A stretch of DNA of 64,000 bases from Bacteriovorax sp. MedPE-SWde (lineage in GTDB: Bacteria > Bdellovibrionota > Bacteriovoracia > Bacteriovoracales > Bacteriovoracaceae), in NCBI GenBank assembly GCA_001874305.1, contig MPCU01000002.1, positions 1-64,000 of the forward strand, read 5' to 3'. Made by a program: the position numbers and the translations under genes. Below the pieces are notes generated by a model. It had not been told where the DNA came from and ran no database searches. It worked only from the letters and a program-made list of their open reading frames with translations. This document shows positions 21,547 to 59,025 of this stretch, one piece after another (the stretch's first letter is position 1; every line of letters starts with the position of its first letter).

Positions 21547-22899
21547 TTAATATAACCAGTTACTAATTTTACAGTCTGACTTTAATGTCACACCATGTCT
21601 TCTATAGGCCCAGCACATATAAGAAACTGAAACAAAGAAAGAAGCTGGTAATCTATTAAGGTGTCCAATTTTACAACCTAAGAGAGTAGTCTTTCCACCA
21701 AATCCCATTGGCCCAATACCAAGTTTGTTTGCTGTTTCGACAATATCTTTTTCTAAAGTAGCTAGCTCTTCTATGTCACTAGAATCATCAAGCCTTCTAA
21801 AAAGTTGCTCTTTTGAATCAACATAACCTGCACCTCGATCACCGCCTATACAAACACCAAGAACTCCTGGTCCGCAACCTTTCCCTTGAGCTTTTTGTAC
21901 AGCATCTAAGATGGCCTTACGAACACCGTCAAGGTCACGTCCTGCTCCTAGGTCTTGGTTAGGTAAAGAGTATTGAGCACCAACATTTTCACAACCTCCA
22001 CCTTTAAGCATAAGTCTAACTTCTACAGTCTTCTTACTGTGCTCATGAAAGTGAATAGATGGGTGTCCTGGCCCTAGATTCATCGTATCGTTAGTTCCCT
22101 TTAAAGAGTCAACAGAGTTTTGTCTTAAATAACCAACTTCAGTGGCCTTAACAACAGCTTTCTCAACAATCGATCTAAATTCAGTTTGATTAAAACCAAC
22201 AGGGTGTGCAACATTGAAAATAATTGTTCCTGTATCTTGGCAAATTGGTTGGGACTTCTTTTTTGCAAGTTCGATATTTGCTTTGATGATATTCATTGCA
22301 TATTCTGCAGTTGTATCCTTCTCTTCTCTATCGAGTGCTTCAAGAACGACTTTTTGAATATCGTCAGGGATAACTGTCGATGTGATTCTTACTAGTTCAA
22401 GAATTGAATCAAATAAGTTCCCCTTAGTATTTACTTTTTTTGTAACTTTCTTAGTTGCTTTTTTAGCTACTTTTTTAGCTACTTTTTTCTTAGTCGCTTT
22501 CTTTGCTACTTTTTTCTTAGTCGCTTTCTTCGCTACTTTTTTCTTAGTCGCTTTCTTTGCTACTTTTTTCTTAGTCGCTTTCTTCGCTACTTTTTTCTTA
22601 GTCGCTTTCTTCGCTACTTTTTTCTTAGTTGCTTTCTTCGCAACTTTTTTCTTAGTCGCTTTCTTCGCAACTTTTTTCTTAGTCGCTTTCTTCGCAACTT
22701 TTTTCTTAGTCGCTTTCTTCACTACTTTTTTCTTAGTTGCTTTCTTCGCTACTTTTTTCTTAGTTGCTTTCTTCGCTACTTTTTTCTTAGTTGCTTTCTT
22801 CGCTACTTTTTTCTTAGCTACTTTCTTAGTTGCCTTTTTTGCAACTTTCTTCTTAGCTACTTTCTTAGTCGCTTTTTTTGCGGCCTTCTTCTTTGCCAT
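21547..22899 (-). CDS. Class I fumarate hydratase alpha subunit with histone-H1-like Lys/Ala tail
   Basis: 450 residues in one uninterrupted frame. Residues 1 to about 160 are a Lys/Ala/Thr/Val tail of the kind seen in bacterial H1-like proteins, including twelve consecutive copies of the 9-residue unit VAKKATKKK (one with VV). Residues 161-450 (290 aa) are a full alpha subunit of two-subunit class I fumarase. Its probable [4Fe-4S] ligands are Cys220 (CQDTGT), Cys342 (GCGPG) and Cys429 (CWAYRR), and it also has GGGCENVG at 301-308 and CIGGDRGAGY at 350-359. The enzyme part begins exactly where orthologues normally start, so the tail is an added extension rather than a misread frame. With the beta subunit it should hydrate fumarate. 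What the tail does (DNA, RNA or polyphosphate binding, localisation) is unknown. Confidence 0.93.
   Translation of the reverse strand: MAKKKAAKKATKKVAKKKVAKKATKKVAKKKVAKKATKKKVAKKATKKKVAKKATKKKVVKKATKKKVAKKATKKKVAKKATKKKVAKKATKKKVAKKATKKKVAKKATKKKVAKKATKKKVAKKATKKKVAKKATKKKVAKKVAKKATKKVTKKVNTKGNLFDSILELVRITSTVIPDDIQKVVLEALDREEKDTTAEYAMNIIKANIELAKKKSQPICQDTGTIIFNVAHPVGFNQTEFRSIVEKAVVKATEVGYLRQNSVDSLKGTNDTMNLGPGHPSIHFHEHSKKTVEVRLMLKGGGCENVGAQYSLPNQDLGAGRDLDGVRKAILDAVQKAQGKGCGPGVLGVCIGGDRGAGYVDSKEQLFRRLDDSSDIEELATLEKDIVETANKLGIGPMGFGGKTTLLGCKIGHLNRLPASFFVSVSYMCWAYRRHGVTLKSDCKISNWLY
22481..22804 (-). repeat. Twelve tandem 27-bp repeats encoding the fumarase tail
   Basis: Twelve adjacent 27-bp units, differing only at a few positions (Cys/Thr codon wobble and one Val codon), run without spacers. 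Each unit encodes nine residues of the Lys/Ala tail. The array is a likely site of copy-number change by slippage. Confidence 0.95.
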
Positions 22900-52601: not shown

Positions 52602-53435
52602 TTAACCGATAAGCTTTAGTGCAGCTTGTCCTTGTGCGTTTGATTGAGCAAGAACAGAAGTACCAGCATTTGTTAAGATGTCTAGTTTTGTTTTCTTCGC
52701 TGTTTCTGCTGCATAGTCAGTGTCTCTAATACGAGAGTTTGCAGCACTTAAGTTCTCTGAACTTACCTGCAAGTTTTGAACCGTAGAAGATAGTCTGTTT
52801 TGTTTTGCCCCAAGCTCTGCTCTTTGACCAGAAACTTGTTGAATTGCATTATCAATCGCTGATAAACCATTTTGAGCATCTTCTTTAGAAGATACTGCTA
52901 GTCCATCTACCCCTAAACTTCCAATTGAAGAGTTTAAAAGTTCTGTATCAAATGAAATTCTATCTTGAAAATCGTCATTATTAATACCGATTTGGAAATC
53001 ATAGTTGTCACCTTCACCATTTAGAAGCTTCTTACCGTTAAATTCCGTAACCTGAGAAATTCTTTCCATTTCTTGCTTTAAGTTTTGATATTCTAGATCA
53101 GTAAACTTTCTCTCTGTATCTCCAACTGTATCAGATGCAGATTGTACCGAAAGCTCTCTTAATCTAATAAGAATATTAGAGATCTCATTAAGTCCACCCT
53201 CAGCAGTTTGAATCATTGAAATACCATCATTTGCATTTCTTTCTGCTTGATTAGTTGATCTTACTTGTGCCTTTAATTTCTCAGAGATTGCTAGACCGGC
53301 AGCATCATCAGCAGAACGTACAATTCTTGTACCTGAAGATAATTTACCTAGAGTGTTTGCCTGATCTTTGTTGTTAGTGCTTAATGTTCTTTGTGCTGCT
53401 AGTGATGTAACGTTCGTGTTAATTCGTAAACCCAT
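52602..53435 (-). CDS. fliC: Flagellin
   Basis: Flagellar filament subunit, 277 residues from the ATG at 53435, which has GGAGG 6 nt before it; a longer frame to 53495 lacks this. The N-terminal D0/D1 region begins GLRINTNVTSLAAQR and continues with KLSSGTRIVRSADDAAGLAISE; the C-terminal region has NRLSSTVQNLQVSSENLSAANSRI and ends QAALKLIG. The variable centre is short, so there is no large D2/D3 domain. No export signal peptide, as expected for type III export. A FliA-type promoter lies 124 nt upstream and a strong terminator follows. Confidence 0.97.
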   Translation of the reverse strand: MGLRINTNVTSLAAQRTLSTNNKDQANTLGKLSSGTRIVRSADDAAGLAISEKLKAQVRSTNQAERNANDGISMIQTAEGGLNEISNILIRLRELSVQSASDTVGDTERKFTDLEYQNLKQEMERISQVTEFNGKKLLNGEGDNYDFQIGINNDDFQDRISFDTELLNSSIGSLGVDGLAVSSKEDAQNGLSAIDNAIQQVSGQRAELGAKQNRLSSTVQNLQVSSENLSAANSRIRDTDYAAETAKKTKLDILTNAGTSVLAQSNAQGQAALKLIG

Positions 53436-53558
53436 TGATGCCTCCTTGATCATCCTATCCATTCTGGAGTTCGACCCTTCAACCGTGAGGATCAATAAGC
53501 TTACTGCTATTGTGATTAAATTTTATAAAATGAAAGGACTCTTGTCCTGACAATTACT

Positions 53559-53654: not shown

Positions 53655-53682
53655 TAAGGAGATTCCATCCTTATACCGATAA
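53655..53682 (+). promoter_or_regulatory. FliA-type minus-10 element immediately before the CheY-module operon
   Basis: ACCGATAA at 53675-53682 matches the GCCGATAA element at 7/8, with a weak TAAGGAGA at 53655-53662. Only 7 nt separate it from the ATG at 53690, so transcription would begin at the start codon (leaderless mRNA). The AAGGAG in the -35 area is too far from the ATG to act as a ribosome site. Confidence 0.5.
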
Positions 53683-53689
53683 AAATAGC

Positions 53690-56500
53690 ATGAGTGCCAA
53701 GAAACCACTTATATTCATACAACCACTTTCTGAATCACTTCAAAAACTAAAAGATGTTATTGAAGAAGTTGCAGAAGAAGAAAAGATTGAGGTCTTCGAA
53801 GTTGAAGATGCTTCAGAAGTTGCTCAGTTAATTCCTACGGTTGGCCAATCACTTTCAATTTTTGGAAATCCAAAAAAATGCGCTGCTGTTCTCCAACCAA
53901 ATAGAAAGGTAATTCAAAAATTAAATAGTAAAGTAATACTTCTTTCCAAGAAGTCTATGCCAAGAAAGACATTGGATAAGTTCTCAAAGATTGGACTTAC
54001 TGAATGTATTGTTGAGCCAGTTGCTCCAAAGACTCTACTCTACAAAGTAAGACTTCTCCTTAGATCAATTGTGGTAGCAAAGGATGAAGAAGATGAAGAA
54101 GAATCTTCTTTTGATACAAGCTCTGATTCAAGTGAGTCTAGTTCTGAAAAACAACGACTAGAAAAAGGAGTACTCACTGAAGAGGAAGAGGCCATTGACT
54201 ACAACCTCAAAGGTAAAATTAATCAGGGTCTAGAAATGGACGCTGAAGAAGATGAAGGTAAGAAGAATGGATATTCAGAAGAGGCCATCGAGAAAGATTG
54301 GAAAGGTAGCGTTGAGCAAGACAACCTCGAGCTTGATGAAGAAGAGAAAAAGAAACGCGATACTGAAGACTCTGAAAACTATATTGATTCCTACCTGAGA
54401 GGAAAGAAAAGCTCACACACTGATGAGCTCATTGATCATGAAACTAGTTCGAAAAATAAAGACGGACACGATGAAGATGAGGAAGAAGATCTCTATGGAA
54501 AGAATAAAGAGCTAAGCCTTGATCTTGTCGCAGAAGAAGACGACGATGAAAAAGATAGAGATGGTGACGATCTAGAAAGTGATGACAAGTATTACAAAGG
54601 AAAAGTAGCTGCAGAAGATCTAGAACTTGAAGCAGAAGAGCAAAACAAGAGAGCTCAACTTGAAGACGATGATGATGAAGAAGAAGAGTCACCTACTAAT
54701 GACGGCCTTATTGACATGGAACTCGAGGCAGAAGATGACGTTGAAAAAAACGAAGATGAACTAGAGTTAGAGGATGAAGAAGAATCGACAAAGGAAAATG
54801 GAGATACAGGCCTAGACCTTGAAGCAGATGAAGAAGAAAGACCTTCAAGTGAAGAAGAATTGGAGCTTGAAGAAGATGAAAATAATAAAACGAATGAAGA
54901 TCATTCCCTTGATCTTGAAGATGAGAGCGATAGTAATAAGAAAAAAGATGAAGAACTAGAGTTAGAGGAAGAAAGAAATAGACCTGAGTTCGAAAAACAA
55001 GAGGAAGAAGAGCAAGACTCCCATTATAGAGGTGATGTTGCTCAAGTTGTAGAGCTTATAGATGAAGAAGATATTGATGCTAGAAATAGACACGACCTCG
55101 ATGCCGACGAAGATTTAGACGATGGCGATAATAATGAAATAGATAACTCTCTTGATCTTGATGCGGACGATGAAGACTCAAATGATAATAAAGACGAATT
55201 AGAACTAGAAGAAAGTGATGATATATCTGCAAAAGATAAAGACAATGGCATAGACCTTGAAAGCGATGACGAAGACCAAGAACCAAAGAGCGATGGTCTA
55301 GAACTGATTGGAGAAGAAGGAAATAACGAGAATTCTGATAGTGAAGATGAAGATGATGAAGATGAAATGTCATCAAGAACGTCCAATAATGATTTAGATC
55401 TCGCCTTCGATGATGAAAGTGATGCAGAAAAGAGTAAAGAAGCTGAAGATGAAGATGAAAACTATAATACTAAAACATCTGGCTTAGACTTAGACTTAGA
55501 AGATGATGATCAAAGAAAAAAACATAGTGCCCACACAGAGCATATAGACACTCGTATGGATAGCCGTAAGGCCATAGATCATACAGATCAAGATTGGGAT
55601 ATTTTAGGAAAGAAGAATAAGTCAGAAGGTCATGATGAAGAGTCAAAGAAAAAATCTGATATTCAAATTTCATTTAAAGAGAAAGTAGATCTTGGTGAAC
55701 AAACAATAGACTATAGAAAACTTCAAAATGAGTTTGACGCCATTACTATTAACAGAGTTGGTGGAAAGAGAAAGAAAACTGGTCCTAAGTACTACTCTGA
55801 CGATATGACTGAAGAAGAGTACCTAAAGGGTGTTTATGGCGCTGACTACGACAACGCACTTGATGATATATCAGAGAACCTCAAAAATAGAAAAGATAAG
55901 AAGGCAGACACAGTCGTATATAATCCTATGCCTCAAGGCCTAGATGAAGCGGTAAGAGTTATGAATCTCTACCATAATAAGTCATTAAAGAAAGAAGATA
56001 TCTTTTCATATATTGCCAATTCTTTACTCAATAGATTTGGCGGACATACTTTCTTCTTTAGTATTAACCCTGATAACGGGGAACTATTCAATTCATTTGC
56101 ACTAAATGAAACAAATGAAAGTGTTGATAGTGAGGTCATAGAAAAATGGACACAAATCAAAGAAGAAAACTATGACGAGTGGTTAGTAATGAACCTCCCC
56201 GTTTGGACAGATGAAAAACTAATTACTGATGATAATATTTTCTTCTATCCAATATATGAAGGTGCCAACAAACTAGGTTTTGCAGTTGTTCTCTTTAATA
56301 AGCTAATAGAAAGAGACCAAGCAAAGAGTGTAGAGATCATCTTAGAGACTGTTCGAGGAATAGTCCTAGAAGAGTTCCATAGCTCAGGAAAAACTGAAGA
56401 ATATAATGTAGACCTTACAAAGAAAAAAGGTGGCGAAGAAAAGAAAGAAGGTTTTGTGAAGTCTTTCTTTGGTAAATTTAAAAAGAAGAAGGCGAGCTAA
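53690..56500 (+). CDS. Pseudo-receiver / acidic-repeat / GAF-like protein, first gene of the CheY module
   Basis: 936 residues in three parts. Residues 1-130 look like a receiver fold (strand-helix pattern ending EPVAPKTLLYKVRLLLRSI, the typical receiver C-terminus), but I cannot find the acidic pocket and phospho-Asp, so it is probably a pseudo-receiver. Residues about 130-700 are an Asp/Glu/Lys-rich region built from degenerate repeats of the type LELE(A/E)EE and GLDLEADEEE, interspersed with aromatic-(Lys/Arg)-Gly motifs (WKGSVEQ, YKGKVAAED, YRGDVAQ). Residues about 770-900 resemble a GAF-like sensor domain, followed by a basic tail ending KKKKAS. No Shine-Dalgarno sequence is near the ATG. 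The next gene overlaps by one base. Confidence 0.82.
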   Translation: MSAKKPLIFIQPLSESLQKLKDVIEEVAEEEKIEVFEVEDASEVAQLIPTVGQSLSIFGNPKKCAAVLQPNRKVIQKLNSKVILLSKKSMPRKTLDKFSKIGLTECIVEPVAPKTLLYKVRLLLRSIVVAKDEEDEEESSFDTSSDSSESSSEKQRLEKGVLTEEEEAIDYNLKGKINQGLEMDAEEDEGKKNGYSEEAIEKDWKGSVEQDNLELDEEEKKKRDTEDSENYIDSYLRGKKSSHTDELIDHETSSKNKDGHDEDEEEDLYGKNKELSLDLVAEEDDDEKDRDGDDLESDDKYYKGKVAAEDLELEAEEQNKRAQLEDDDDEEEESPTNDGLIDMELEAEDDVEKNEDELELEDEEESTKENGDTGLDLEADEEERPSSEEELELEEDENNKTNEDHSLDLEDESDSNKKKDEELELEEERNRPEFEKQEEEEQDSHYRGDVAQVVELIDEEDIDARNRHDLDADEDLDDGDNNEIDNSLDLDADDEDSNDNKDELELEESDDISAKDKDNGIDLESDDEDQEPKSDGLELIGEEGNNENSDSEDEDDEDEMSSRTSNNDLDLAFDDESDAEKSKEAEDEDENYNTKTSGLDLDLEDDDQRKKHSAHTEHIDTRMDSRKAIDHTDQDWDILGKKNKSEGHDEESKKKSDIQISFKEKVDLGEQTIDYRKLQNEFDAITINRVGGKRKKTGPKYYSDDMTEEEYLKGVYGADYDNALDDISENLKNRKDKKADTVVYNPMPQGLDEAVRVMNLYHNKSLKKEDIFSYIANSLLNRFGGHTFFFSINPDNGELFNSFALNETNESVDSEVIEKWTQIKEENYDEWLVMNLPVWTDEKLITDDNIFFYPIYEGANKLGFAVVLFNKLIERDQAKSVEIILETVRGIVLEEFHSSGKTEEYNVDLTKKKGGEEKKEGFVKSFFGKFKKKKAS

Positions 56501-57573
56501 TGAGTATACCTAGCGAATTATTCCATATTGATATAGAACACCTTGGAGATAGAAAAATTTTTCCATTTCATATCTATGTCTATAACCCACAATCTCAAAG
56601 CTACTCTCCTTACCTATTTGCAAATAGTCCTATGGGTAATGATAAGTGGGAGTTCATACAGTTCATTACAGAAAAAGGCGGTGAGATAGCTGTCGACAAA
56701 AAACAAAAGAGAACATTCCTACATGAAATGTCGCTTCAAGAAGAGGATATCCCCTCTTTAGCAGAAAAGGAATTAAGTGAAATAGAAAAAAAGAGATTAG
56801 AAAAAATAAACAAGAAGAAACATCAACTTGAATTAAAACAGCAACAAAATCCAGATGCTATGGACGAAGGAGAAAAAGTCTACGACCTCAAATCAGGATT
56901 AAATGATTGTATAAAAATGGATAATTTCTTACCTATGATTCTAGCTGCAAAAGAGGAAATTGAGATCTTCGAGCTCACTATATCCCATACTGTCTCTTTG
57001 GCGGCATATCTTGGAGAAAACCTTCTTACAGAGGACAACTTTACTAATAGAATCGTCGCCTTTTGTTACTTTATGACAAAGAATATGGACATGAAGGACC
57101 AAGAAACCTTGGCCGACATCATATGTGCGGCATTCTTTGCACACCTAGGATATACGCAACTAGACTACTCAATATCTCATACTGCTCAACTCGAGCTAAA
57201 TGAGAAACAAAAGAAGAAGCACGAGAAGCATCCAGGCTACTCACATCACATGCTAGTCAAAAGCGGTGTCGAACTCAGCGACAGGTGCAAGAACATTATA
57301 TTCCAACACCATGAGCTCTACGCTGGCCAAGGTTATCCTTCACAGAAAAGAGGTGAATTTATAGACATATTGGGACTTATATTAGGCTCTGTTTCACATA
57401 TATTCGAGTTCAGTACAGGTAGAATCAATGGTAGTGCCCTACCTTTAGAGTTGGTCATTAACCGCCTGAAAAATAAAACCTTTACTGCTGGACTTGAATT
57501 CGACTTTGGCGATAAAATATATGAGAACTTAATTTATTTAATAGATACAGAAAATAACACAAAAGCTGCTTAA
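56500..57573 (+). CDS. Degenerate HD-GYP-type protein
   Basis: 357 residues, ATG overlapping the preceding stop (TAATG). Residues 1-130 are an unknown N-terminal domain with a Glu/Lys/Gln helical segment (90-125). Residues about 140-350 have the HD-GYP layout: His163 in ISHTVSLAAYLGE, then AFFAHLGY, in which the HD dyad is His215-Leu216 (Asp lost), KHPGYSHH (244-250) and the HHELYAGQGYP loop (270-280), close to the family's HxxxxGxGYP. Loss of the HD Asp and other ligands suggests it no longer hydrolyses cyclic-di-GMP and may instead bind a partner or nucleotide. In the operon with CheY and CheX. Confidence 0.8.
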   Translation: MSIPSELFHIDIEHLGDRKIFPFHIYVYNPQSQSYSPYLFANSPMGNDKWEFIQFITEKGGEIAVDKKQKRTFLHEMSLQEEDIPSLAEKELSEIEKKRLEKINKKKHQLELKQQQNPDAMDEGEKVYDLKSGLNDCIKMDNFLPMILAAKEEIEIFELTISHTVSLAAYLGENLLTEDNFTNRIVAFCYFMTKNMDMKDQETLADIICAAFFAHLGYTQLDYSISHTAQLELNEKQKKKHEKHPGYSHHMLVKSGVELSDRCKNIIFQHHELYAGQGYPSQKRGEFIDILGLILGSVSHIFEFSTGRINGSALPLELVINRLKNKTFTAGLEFDFGDKIYENLIYLIDTENNTKAA

Positions 57574-57585
57574 GGGAGATTACTA

Positions 57586-57984
57586 ATGGCGCTAAAAGCG
57601 AACATGAAGATTTTAGTTATTGATGACATGGCCACCATGAGAAAAATTATCAAGAACATGTTAGGACAAATTGGTTTCACAAATATCACTGAAGCTGATG
57701 ATGGAGCTACAGGATTACCAATGATTGAGAGTGCTCAAGAAAGTGGTGAACCATATGAATTCATTGTATCCGATTGGAACATGCCTCAAATGACAGGTCT
57801 AGAACTCTTAAAAACGCTAAGAGCAAATGACACGTACAAAGCACTACCATTTCTTATGATTACTGCGGAAGCGGAACAAGGAAATGTTGTAATTGCTGTT
57901 AAGGCCGGAGTAAGTAACTTCATTGTTAAGCCTTTCTCTGCTCAAGTTTTAAAAGAGAAAATTGATAAGATTTTTAATAAATAA
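57586..57984 (+). CDS. cheY: CheY-type single-domain response regulator
   Basis: 132-residue stand-alone receiver. The acidic pocket is Asp13/Asp14, the phospho-acceptor is Asp63 (VSDWNMPQM), with Thr93 (MITAE) and Lys115 (VKPF). The close similarity to chemotaxis CheY (WNMPxMTGLELLKTLR) suggests it interacts with FliM or a similar target. Starts at ATG after GGGAG. In this operon it sits between the degenerate HD-GYP protein and two proteins likely to bind or dephosphorylate it. The cognate histidine kinase is not in the window. Confidence 0.96.
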   Translation: MALKANMKILVIDDMATMRKIIKNMLGQIGFTNITEADDGATGLPMIESAQESGEPYEFIVSDWNMPQMTGLELLKTLRANDTYKALPFLMITAEAEQGNVVIAVKAGVSNFIVKPFSAQVLKEKIDKIFNK

Positions 57985-57994
57985 GGACTGTTAA

Positions 57995-58504
57995 ATGGGA
58001 CTACTAGACGATCCCTCAATGAGAGAAATTGTTGTCGAATTTTGTGATGAATCAAAAGAGCTTCTAGATGAGCTAGAGACTGTTTTAGAAGACCTTGAAG
58101 ATGACCCAACAAGAGTTGAACTACTAGAAAAATTCGGACAAGTAATTGACCGAATAATGGGTGCCGCAAGATCAATCGGGGCCGATGAGATAGGTACATT
58201 TTGTGAACTTGGAAAGGCCATTGGCTATAAATCCAGCCAAACAAAAGACCCTGCTCTTCTAGAGGTTGTTGTTGGAGTATTATTCGATTCACATGAGCTC
58301 TTAGTTAAAATGATTGACCAAATAAAAACTGGTCATGACAACGGACTAAAAGCAATGAATACTCAGGCCTTTGTAACACGACTTAAGTGGCTACAAGACA
58401 AGTTTAAAAACATTGAGAGATCATCGGTATCATTCTCAGCAGATTCGAAAAAAGAACTAGACCAGTCCTCTATTGATGACCTCATGTCTAGTCTTGGATT
58501 ATAA
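57995..58504 (+). CDS. Hpt-like helical protein with a CheZ-like CheY-binding C-terminal peptide
   Basis: 169 residues, ATG after AAGGA. Residues 1-120 form an Hpt-like four-helix pattern (FCDESKELLDELETVLEDLE, then a second helix where Hpt domains carry the phospho-His), but the His is not at the expected place; the corresponding stretch reads DRIMGAARSIGA. The last 15 residues (155-169) read DQSSIDDLMSSLGL, matching the C-terminal CheY-binding peptide of CheZ, which ends in a similar DDLLDSLGF pattern. The protein therefore probably binds CheY. Whether it dephosphorylates CheY is unclear, since the CheZ catalytic Gln region is not obvious. Confidence 0.72.
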   Translation: MGLLDDPSMREIVVEFCDESKELLDELETVLEDLEDDPTRVELLEKFGQVIDRIMGAARSIGADEIGTFCELGKAIGYKSSQTKDPALLEVVVGVLFDSHELLVKMIDQIKTGHDNGLKAMNTQAFVTRLKWLQDKFKNIERSSVSFSADSKKELDQSSIDDLMSSLGL

Positions 58505-58515
58505 TTGGAGCTAAA

Positions 58516-59025
58516 ATGTCAAACGCAAACTTTTTAGAGTTCTCTAAACCATTTATTGAAGCGGCAAAGAACGTTTTCGAAACAATGGTATTTACAAAGC
58601 TCGACCCAGGCAAACCTTCTGTAAAGAAGAATAATAGCTCAAAAGGTGATGTTTCGGCCGTACTTGGATTAAGCGGTGTCTTAACCAAAGAAGGCGCAGA
58701 GAAGAAATATCGAGCGATGCTAGTAATTTCATTTCCATATGATACTTACATTAAAGTTGCTGGTGCAATGCTAATGGAGACATATACTGAATTTAATGAA
58801 GAGATCCGTGATGTAGGAGGAGAAATCTGCAATATGATTATGGGTAACGCTAAGAGAGATCTTGGTGGTCTAGGCTATACTTCAGACATGGCAATTCCAT
58901 CTATTATAGAAGGACCAAGTCATACTATAAAATATCCAGAAGGAACGACGGTTATCATTATTCCGATGAAGTCGGCCCATGGGGAAATGTTCCTTGAGTT
59001 ATGTTACGCCGAAGGAACTGATTAA
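58516..59025 (+). CDS. cheX: CheX-family CheY phosphatase
   Basis: 169 residues, ATG after GGAG. The CheX/CheC/FliY phosphatase motif is visible at GGEICNMIMGNAK: Glu103-x-x-Asn106, then Gly110 and Asn111, the residues that coordinate attack on phospho-Asp. Family length is about 155-165 residues. It dephosphorylates CheY~P, and here the CheY gene is two genes upstream in the same operon. It ends 5 nt before a convergent metallophosphoesterase gene. Confidence 0.9.
   Translation: MSNANFLEFSKPFIEAAKNVFETMVFTKLDPGKPSVKKNNSSKGDVSAVLGLSGVLTKEGAEKKYRAMLVISFPYDTYIKVAGAMLMETYTEFNEEIRDVGGEICNMIMGNAKRDLGGLGYTSDMAIPSIIEGPSHTIKYPEGTTVIIIPMKSAHGEMFLELCYAEGTD

Follow-up and report, generated by a model that had tools for sequence, protein, structure and literature searches.

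Signal termination in most chemosensory systems falls to CheZ or to CheC/CheX (PMC10542144). CheZ and CheX both require an acidic residue together with an amide, in the arrangements DxxxQ and ExxN, respectively (PMC3510030), and these side chains enter the active site of the receiver; in RapH, replacement of Gln by Asn abolishes activity (PMC3035606). The structure of Bd1817 of Bdellovibrio, a catalytically inactive HD-GYP protein, has also been solved, and of its regulatory role it is written that it ‘still remains to be revealed’ (PMC4159591). How, then, might CheY-P be controlled in a lineage that lacks CheZ? A possible answer comes from the first 64,000 nucleotides (nt) of contig MPCU01000002.1 of the predatory marine bacterium Bacteriovorax sp. 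MedPE-SWde (assembly GCA_001874305.1; Bdellovibrionota), the whole of which is called the window here. Five genes lie there in this order on the plus strand: P1 (pseudo-receiver and GAF domains), P2 (an HD-GYP relative), P3 (CheY), P4 (a CheA-P1-like protein) and P5 (CheX). The coordinates, close spacing and domain calls given in a preliminary description of this DNA all hold, the last by Pfam, fold matches and profile searches; P1 and P2 overlap by 1 nt within TAATG, and the later intergenic gaps measure 12, 10 and 11 nt. The reading that we favour, with a probability of roughly 0.6, is that of a flagellar module that controls CheY-P in a lineage without CheZ; in it, CheX would be the phosphatase and P4 a CheY-P-binding protein, possibly a catalytic analogue of CheZ derived from the P1 domain of CheA. 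CheX, CheY and the HD-GYP fold have all been described before. In the open-access literature (subscription papers lay outside the search), we found no description of a His-less CheA P1 domain with a CheZ tail, of its spread through the phylum or of its tie to inactive HD-GYP proteins, no paper that treats the P4 gene or genes bd1818-bd1825, and no account of the gene set as a whole, which the preliminary description had likewise not recognised as a described system.

The case turns on P4 (169 residues; 57995 to 58504, plus strand), whose only significant Pfam match, exceeding the cut-off of the family, is to Hpt (E 1.9e-6). Its AlphaFold model (pLDDT 86.9) runs from a bundle of the CheA-P1 type through a disordered linker to a C-terminal helix, and it matches the P1 domains of R. 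sphaeroides CheA3 (3kyj_A; Z 14.7, rmsd 2.5, 129 residues) and T. maritima CheA (Z 14.0 over 104 residues); the top Foldseek matches are also CheA P1 domains (best E 9e-3). Because designed helical bundles reach Z 13 against the same model, the assignment of the fold leans on the Hpt match and the profile alignment as well, and since the sequence of P4 retrieved only weak CheA matches from among all PDB sequences (best E 0.03), the argument is carried by fold and motif. The motif in question, Q49-x-x-D52-R53-x-M55-G56, lies on helix B (58139 to 58162), and the profile alignment places Asp52 on the phospho-accepting His of CheA. Relative to the CheAs of the same genome, Arg has become Gln or Asn at position 49, His has become Asp52, Lys has become Met55 and Glu has become Lys74 (the Glu position being resolved in two of these CheAs). 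The phospho-accepting His is absent from all 55 P4s compared and is replaced by Asp; Asp52, Lys74, Gly56, Phe16 and Glu19 are invariant among them, position 49 holds Gln in 50 of them and Asn in the other 5, and Met55 is present in 53. This pattern indicates that the phosphotransfer residues were exchanged as a set under selection, not by decay. The Hpt match and the CheA-P1 fold would suit an ordinary phosphotransfer shuttle or a phosphate sink, yet with His replaced by Asp in every P4 and the helper Lys and Glu replaced too, such a role is highly improbable, and the sink was rejected outright on the loss of the His. The ‘phosphate-dissipating’ device of the preliminary description is plausible for CheX, whereas P4 cannot be a sink based on His. 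The closest named relative of P4 is that of Bacteriovorax sp. DB6_IX (90% identical), in keeping with an organism of the Bacteriovorax/Halobacteriovorax group. The same genome also encodes a 148-residue paralogue (G000:C6:29662-30042; L115:7612-8058; L236:4612-5058), which retains Gln49, Asp52 and Lys74, carries no CheZ tail and has neighbours that are not recognisable chemotaxis genes.

The second pillar is the C-terminal helix of P4, QSSIDDLMSSLGL (58463 to 58501). A profile of this tail (QxxIDDLLxxLGL), compared with every PDB chain, found as its top match residues 200-214 of E. coli CheZ (E 0.0043), that is, the extreme C-terminus, ASQDQVDDLLDSLGF, and the runner-up was unrelated (E 0.21); the CheZ-like peptide noticed earlier is thus stronger than a resemblance. 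The CheZ family model PF04344 matches none of the 129 genomes of the class, and P4 itself has no match to the family. CheZ is not among the listed fold matches of P4, which excludes nothing, and in place of the CheZ catalytic pair DxxxQ there is [QN]49-x-x-D52. To judge from these alignments, P4 looks as if it acts like CheZ from outside the CheZ family.

The proteins on which P4 would act, or with which it would share its task, are conventional. P3 (132 residues; 57586 to 57984, plus strand; Pfam Response_reg, E 8.6e-25) is a flagellar-type CheY like that of E. coli, with which it shares 52% identity, and the alignment of the two shows equivalents of D12, D13, D57, T87 and K109, i.e. the Asp pair, the phospho-Asp, the Thr and the Lys by which a CheY is recognised. 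P5 (169 residues; 58516 to 59025, plus strand; Pfam CheX, E 3.4e-20) has a CheX/CheC-like match in the PDB (E 2.3e-30) and is predicted to be a CheX-family CheY-P phosphatase; both the Glu and the Asn of its catalytic motif E103-x-x-N106 (58822 to 58833) are conserved in 24 of 24 sequences. The idea that two of the products probably act on CheY thus finds support in the features of P4 and CheX. The statement that no kinase is present is right for the operon and wrong for the genome, which encodes three CheAs: contig C9 has two of them, within a single che cluster, and the third lies further along C8. In the related genera g13 and g17, moreover, the P4 gene immediately follows that of a CheA-like kinase (loci L038-L043). 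FliM, the presumed target, is found in 117 of the 129 class genomes, and that of this genome begins MAQVLSQDEVDALLNAV and keeps the CheY-binding N-terminal motif SQDEVDALL. Five genomes without FliM (G064-G068) have no match to P4, CheX or P1.

A sequence of events can be proposed from these parts. A CheA encoded elsewhere in the genome would phosphorylate CheY, which would then act on FliM, and CheX, to judge from its intact active site, would strip the phosphate through ExxN. P4 would be a CheA P1 domain that has lost phosphotransfer and retained recognition of CheY: its C-terminal helix may grip the FliM/CheZ face of CheY-P, helix B may offer [Q/N]49 and D52 to the active site of CheY, as CheZ does with D and Q, and the protein would either accelerate dephosphorylation or hold CheY-P and hand it over. 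P1 and P2, a pseudo-receiver/GAF scaffold and its catalytically dead HD-GYP partner, would make up a second unit of their own under sigma28 control, one that probably adjusts or positions this activity when a small ligand or nucleotide is sensed.

Is P4, then, an enzyme or a binder? Within the favoured reading, it may be a true CheY-P phosphatase that adds another structural class to CheZ, CheC/CheX/FliY and Rap and that arose from the P1 domain of the kinase itself. An invariant acid and an amide sit on the very helix that, in CheA P1, docks the receiver active site, and known phosphatases need just such a pair (PMC3510030, PMC3035606); the CheZ tail is present and CheZ is absent from the class; and P4 occurs where a module-type CheX was not found (e.g. 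in genome G061). Against this stand the usual company of CheX, the Gln/Asn exchange, the reversed order of the motif and the proximity of Lys74 to Asp52, so that we regard catalysis as conceivable while expecting, on balance, that it will not prove to be the answer. P4 could instead be a non-catalytic adaptor that binds CheY-P, competing with FliM or carrying CheY-P to CheX and the HD proteins. Tail and fold would be enough for binding, and HD-domain partners are constantly alongside. In genus g45, single proteins of 350-440 residues (L237, L238, L239, L240 and L241) carry a pseudo-receiver of the P1 type (E 1e-18 to 1e-23) and, fused to it, a domain resembling P4 (E 1e-15 to 1e-23), with position 49 mostly lost. 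These fusions are independent evidence that the two kinds of domain work together, and the decay of position 49 in them speaks for an adaptor, although a pure binder has no obvious need for D52 and K74 to be invariant in 55 of 55 sequences; the adaptor comes close to an even chance without reaching it.

Several points weigh against the favoured reading as a whole. The binding of CheY-P and the catalysis are steps that we infer from gene content, conservation, predicted folds, residue swaps, a promoter-like element, synteny and the fusion of the P1 N-terminus to P4. CheX alone could end the signal, so that catalysis by P4 is not required. In some Bdellovibrio, Asn occupies position 49, the very change that inactivates RapH (PMC3035606); Lys74 may hold Asp52 in an internal salt bridge; the Q-x-x-D order is reversed relative to the DxxxQ of CheZ; and some P4s (L048, L056 and L063) have no CheZ tail. 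The tie of P1-P2 to CheY, finally, is loose, because P1-P2 persists in genomes G048 and G039, from which CheY-P4-CheX is missing as a unit.

This last point bears on the architecture of the locus. The order of the five genes is more than chance, being found again on one strand in 16 other loci from many genera, but the single five-gene device of the preliminary description dissolves on comparison: the set consists of two units, P1-P2 and a separable CheY-P4-CheX cassette, joined at a flagellin locus. An HD gene of the P2 clade follows P1 in 42 of 43 P1 loci (the lone exception stops at a contig border), and in 26 of the 43 a flagellin gene is adjacent and divergent upstream of P1. What varies is the stretch between P2 and a metallophosphatase gene, which holds nothing in L221, L222, L232 and L233, CheY alone in L217, L218, L220, L226 and L234, CheY-CheX in L228, and CheY-P4-CheX in the window as in the majority of the other 16 five-gene loci. 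In a congener (G048), the neighbourhood is unchanged from a DUF523-like gene to the metallophosphatase gene, minus CheY-P4-CheX. This genome lacks P4 at any other site, and no CheY in it is close (38% identity at best); another CheY may serve its motor. As a separate observation, this congener (L221, G048:C6) is flagellated, has lost exactly CheY-P4-CheX and has a FliM that keeps the CheY-binding N-terminus. It might be argued from the occurrence of P1-P2 without the cassette in G048, G039, G037 and G041 that the five genes are simply members of the flagellar regulon sharing a promoter, with P1-P2 unrelated to CheY. At most other loci, however, CheY follows P1-P2; in seven (L051-L054, L064, L089 and L090) P1-P2 is convergent with CheY-P4 in one cluster; and the g45 fusions join the two sides in one chain, so that a promoter-only association is unlikely. 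Within the family, clusters such as L052-L054 place CheX, a Bd1817-type HD protein, CheY, P4, P2 and P1 next to one another.

How far does the association extend? P1 is almost restricted to the family (68 of 72 matches in the phylum), whereas P4, an unannotated protein, is phylum-wide in Bdellovibrionota: its sequence profile matches 189 of 340 genomes, weaker related Hpt domains included, and in a scan for the helix-B pattern (one genome per species) 97 of 100 stretches encode relatives. Of these, 80 were kept, and their titles either point to lineages of Bdellovibrionota or are not specific enough to tell. Beyond the family, an HD protein of the Bd1817 family neighbours P4 in 18 of 20 loci, mostly head to head. 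In a Bdellovibrio locus (L117), this neighbour is near-identical to Bd1817 itself (phmmer E 8.4e-198, over all 308 residues), and a cheY-cheX-HD set is located some 3 kb from it; the HD gene of that set encodes a degenerate HD domain to which a receiver-like domain is fused. Conservation is therefore not confined to cheY and cheX, the outcome that the preliminary description had named as contrary to its proposal; across relatives, P4 and HD proteins are conserved at least equally. Bd1817 thereby gains a concrete gene context, head to head with P4 in Bdellovibrio and near cheY-cheX, which opens its role to direct study in a predator that is grown in the laboratory. Perhaps P4 founds a new class of CheY-P phosphatase, built from a kinase P1 domain with a convergent CheZ-type tether, and the inactive HD-GYP neighbours (the Bd1817 family and P2) are ligand-sensing regulators; taken together, these propositions are doubtful rather than probable.

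P2 (357 residues; 56500 to 57573, plus strand; Pfam HD_5, E 1.8e-12) has the HD-GYP fold, with a profile match to proteins of that fold including Bd1817 (E 4e-9), and belongs to a Bacteriovoracaceae-specific clade of its own, apart from the Bd1817 family (SH-aLRT 99 in a quick tree). Its dyad is Ala214-His215, in an alignment anchored on the conserved Gly that follows, and A-H-L-G (57139 to 57150) stands where HD-GYP enzymes have H-D-x-G, which confirms the reported loss of the HD Asp. The dyad is broken in all 44 P2 relatives (intact in none) and kept in 40 of 44 members of the Bd1817 group, and the view of P2 as a probably inactive HD-GYP relative is supported. The GYP motif reads GYP in 25 and GFP in 15 of the 44 relatives; P2 of the window has GYP.

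P1 (936 residues; 53690 to 56500, plus strand) has no Pfam match, and its N-terminus found nothing significant among PDB sequences. In the AlphaFold model, residues 1-131 (53690 to 54082) form a receiver fold (Z 14.4), residues 132-660 are predicted to be disordered, and residues about 748-900 (55931 to 56389) form a GAF fold nearest to that of CodY (Foldseek E 2.6e-5 to 1.5e-4), so that both ends described earlier, pseudo-receiver and GAF-like, are supported. By the strands of the model, Gln11-Pro12, Gly59 and Glu109 occupy the places of the acid pair, the phospho-Asp and the Lys. Segment 132-690 is 40% Asp and Glu and contains 15 motifs of the L-acid-L type (L-D/E-L-D/E), against 2.6 expected in shuffles; these could be short binding motifs toward some partner. 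The likeness of the P1 pseudo-receiver to the receiver-like N-terminus of the REC-HD protein in the Bdellovibrio cheY-cheX operon is unsupported (hhalign probability 0.5%), and that protein is therefore not called a P1-P2 fusion. A separate case is a 660-residue protein encoded between CheX and CheY (L044:8026-10005), in which an acidic repeat, NHGEEEADYSLG, accompanies a true receiver and an HD domain; it resembles P1 and P2 in a single chain, but its HD domain is of another clade.

Upstream, the operon adjoins a divergent flagellin gene (52602 to 53495, minus strand) and is preceded by a sigma28 (FliA)-like promoter, TAAG-N-CCGATAA (53655 to 53682, plus strand), in which TAAG lies 18 nt upstream of the -10 element; by sequence, it resembles the sigma28-type promoter TAAA-N-GCCGATAA. 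In an alignment of 10 species whose upstream DNA has otherwise diverged, CGATAA just 5′ of the start codon of P1 never varies; the exact hexamer occurs close to that start in 19 of 39 P1 loci versus 28 of 543 control open reading frames (the genomes are related, so these counts are not independent), and many of the remaining P1 loci carry CCGAAAA or CCGAATA. The sigma28-like pattern has 35 matches in the genome, against 8 for a reversed control, and the flagellin side, too, reads as sigma28-type, TAAAGATT-N11-ACCGAAAA. In the best explanation, P1-P2 would be a sigma28-controlled unit. Between the end of the -10 element and the ATG of P1 lie 7 nt (53655-53690), and because this closeness is conserved, the P1 mRNA may be leaderless. 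Of the ‘flagellar or gliding control’ suggested earlier, the flagellar half is favoured by the flagellin neighbour, the sigma28-like promoter and the absence from five FliM-less genomes; gliding found no support and was rejected on the same evidence. A plasmid search returned no match. Elsewhere in the window (21547-22899), a 450-residue reading frame has, by reading only, a long KKATKKKVAKK repeat ahead of a putative part like a fumarate hydratase subunit.

Set against described systems, the module recalls the Cle proteins of Caulobacter in its putative link between CheY-type control of the motor and c-di-GMP, but Cle proteins belong to another family, being paralogues of CheY that bear an Arg-rich tail for c-di-GMP (PMC5677366). 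With Bd1817 (PDB 3TM8), P2 shares the HD-GYP fold by profile, and genes of the Bd1817 family adjoin P4 across the phylum; P2 differs in its separate clade and broken dyad, whereas HD is intact in 40 of 44 members of the Bd1817 family. Among CheX, CheC and FliY phosphatases, P5 is an ordinary CheX with an intact ExxN, and the novelty lies in its partners, not in P5. Rap and Spo0E phosphatases, compared from the literature only, resemble P4 in the insertion of a helix-borne amide or acid into the receiver active site, but have other folds, substrates and lineages (PMC3035606). CheA P1 and Hpt domains (R. sphaeroides CheA3, T. maritima CheA) share with P4 the fold, the helix register and the position of the active helix, whereas in P4 the phospho-His, helper Lys and Glu have given way to Asp, Met and Lys, and the domain stands alone with a CheZ tail. 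CheZ of E. coli (PF04344), in turn, is likewise a helical bundle with an acid and an amide on one helix and an amphipathic C-terminal helix, CheY-binding in CheZ, behind a flexible linker; P4 departs from it in the CheA-P1 fold, in having no match to the family and in its motif, [QN]xxD as opposed to DxxxQ. If the favoured reading is true, P4 shows that a phosphatase or a CheY trap can be built from the parts of phosphotransfer.

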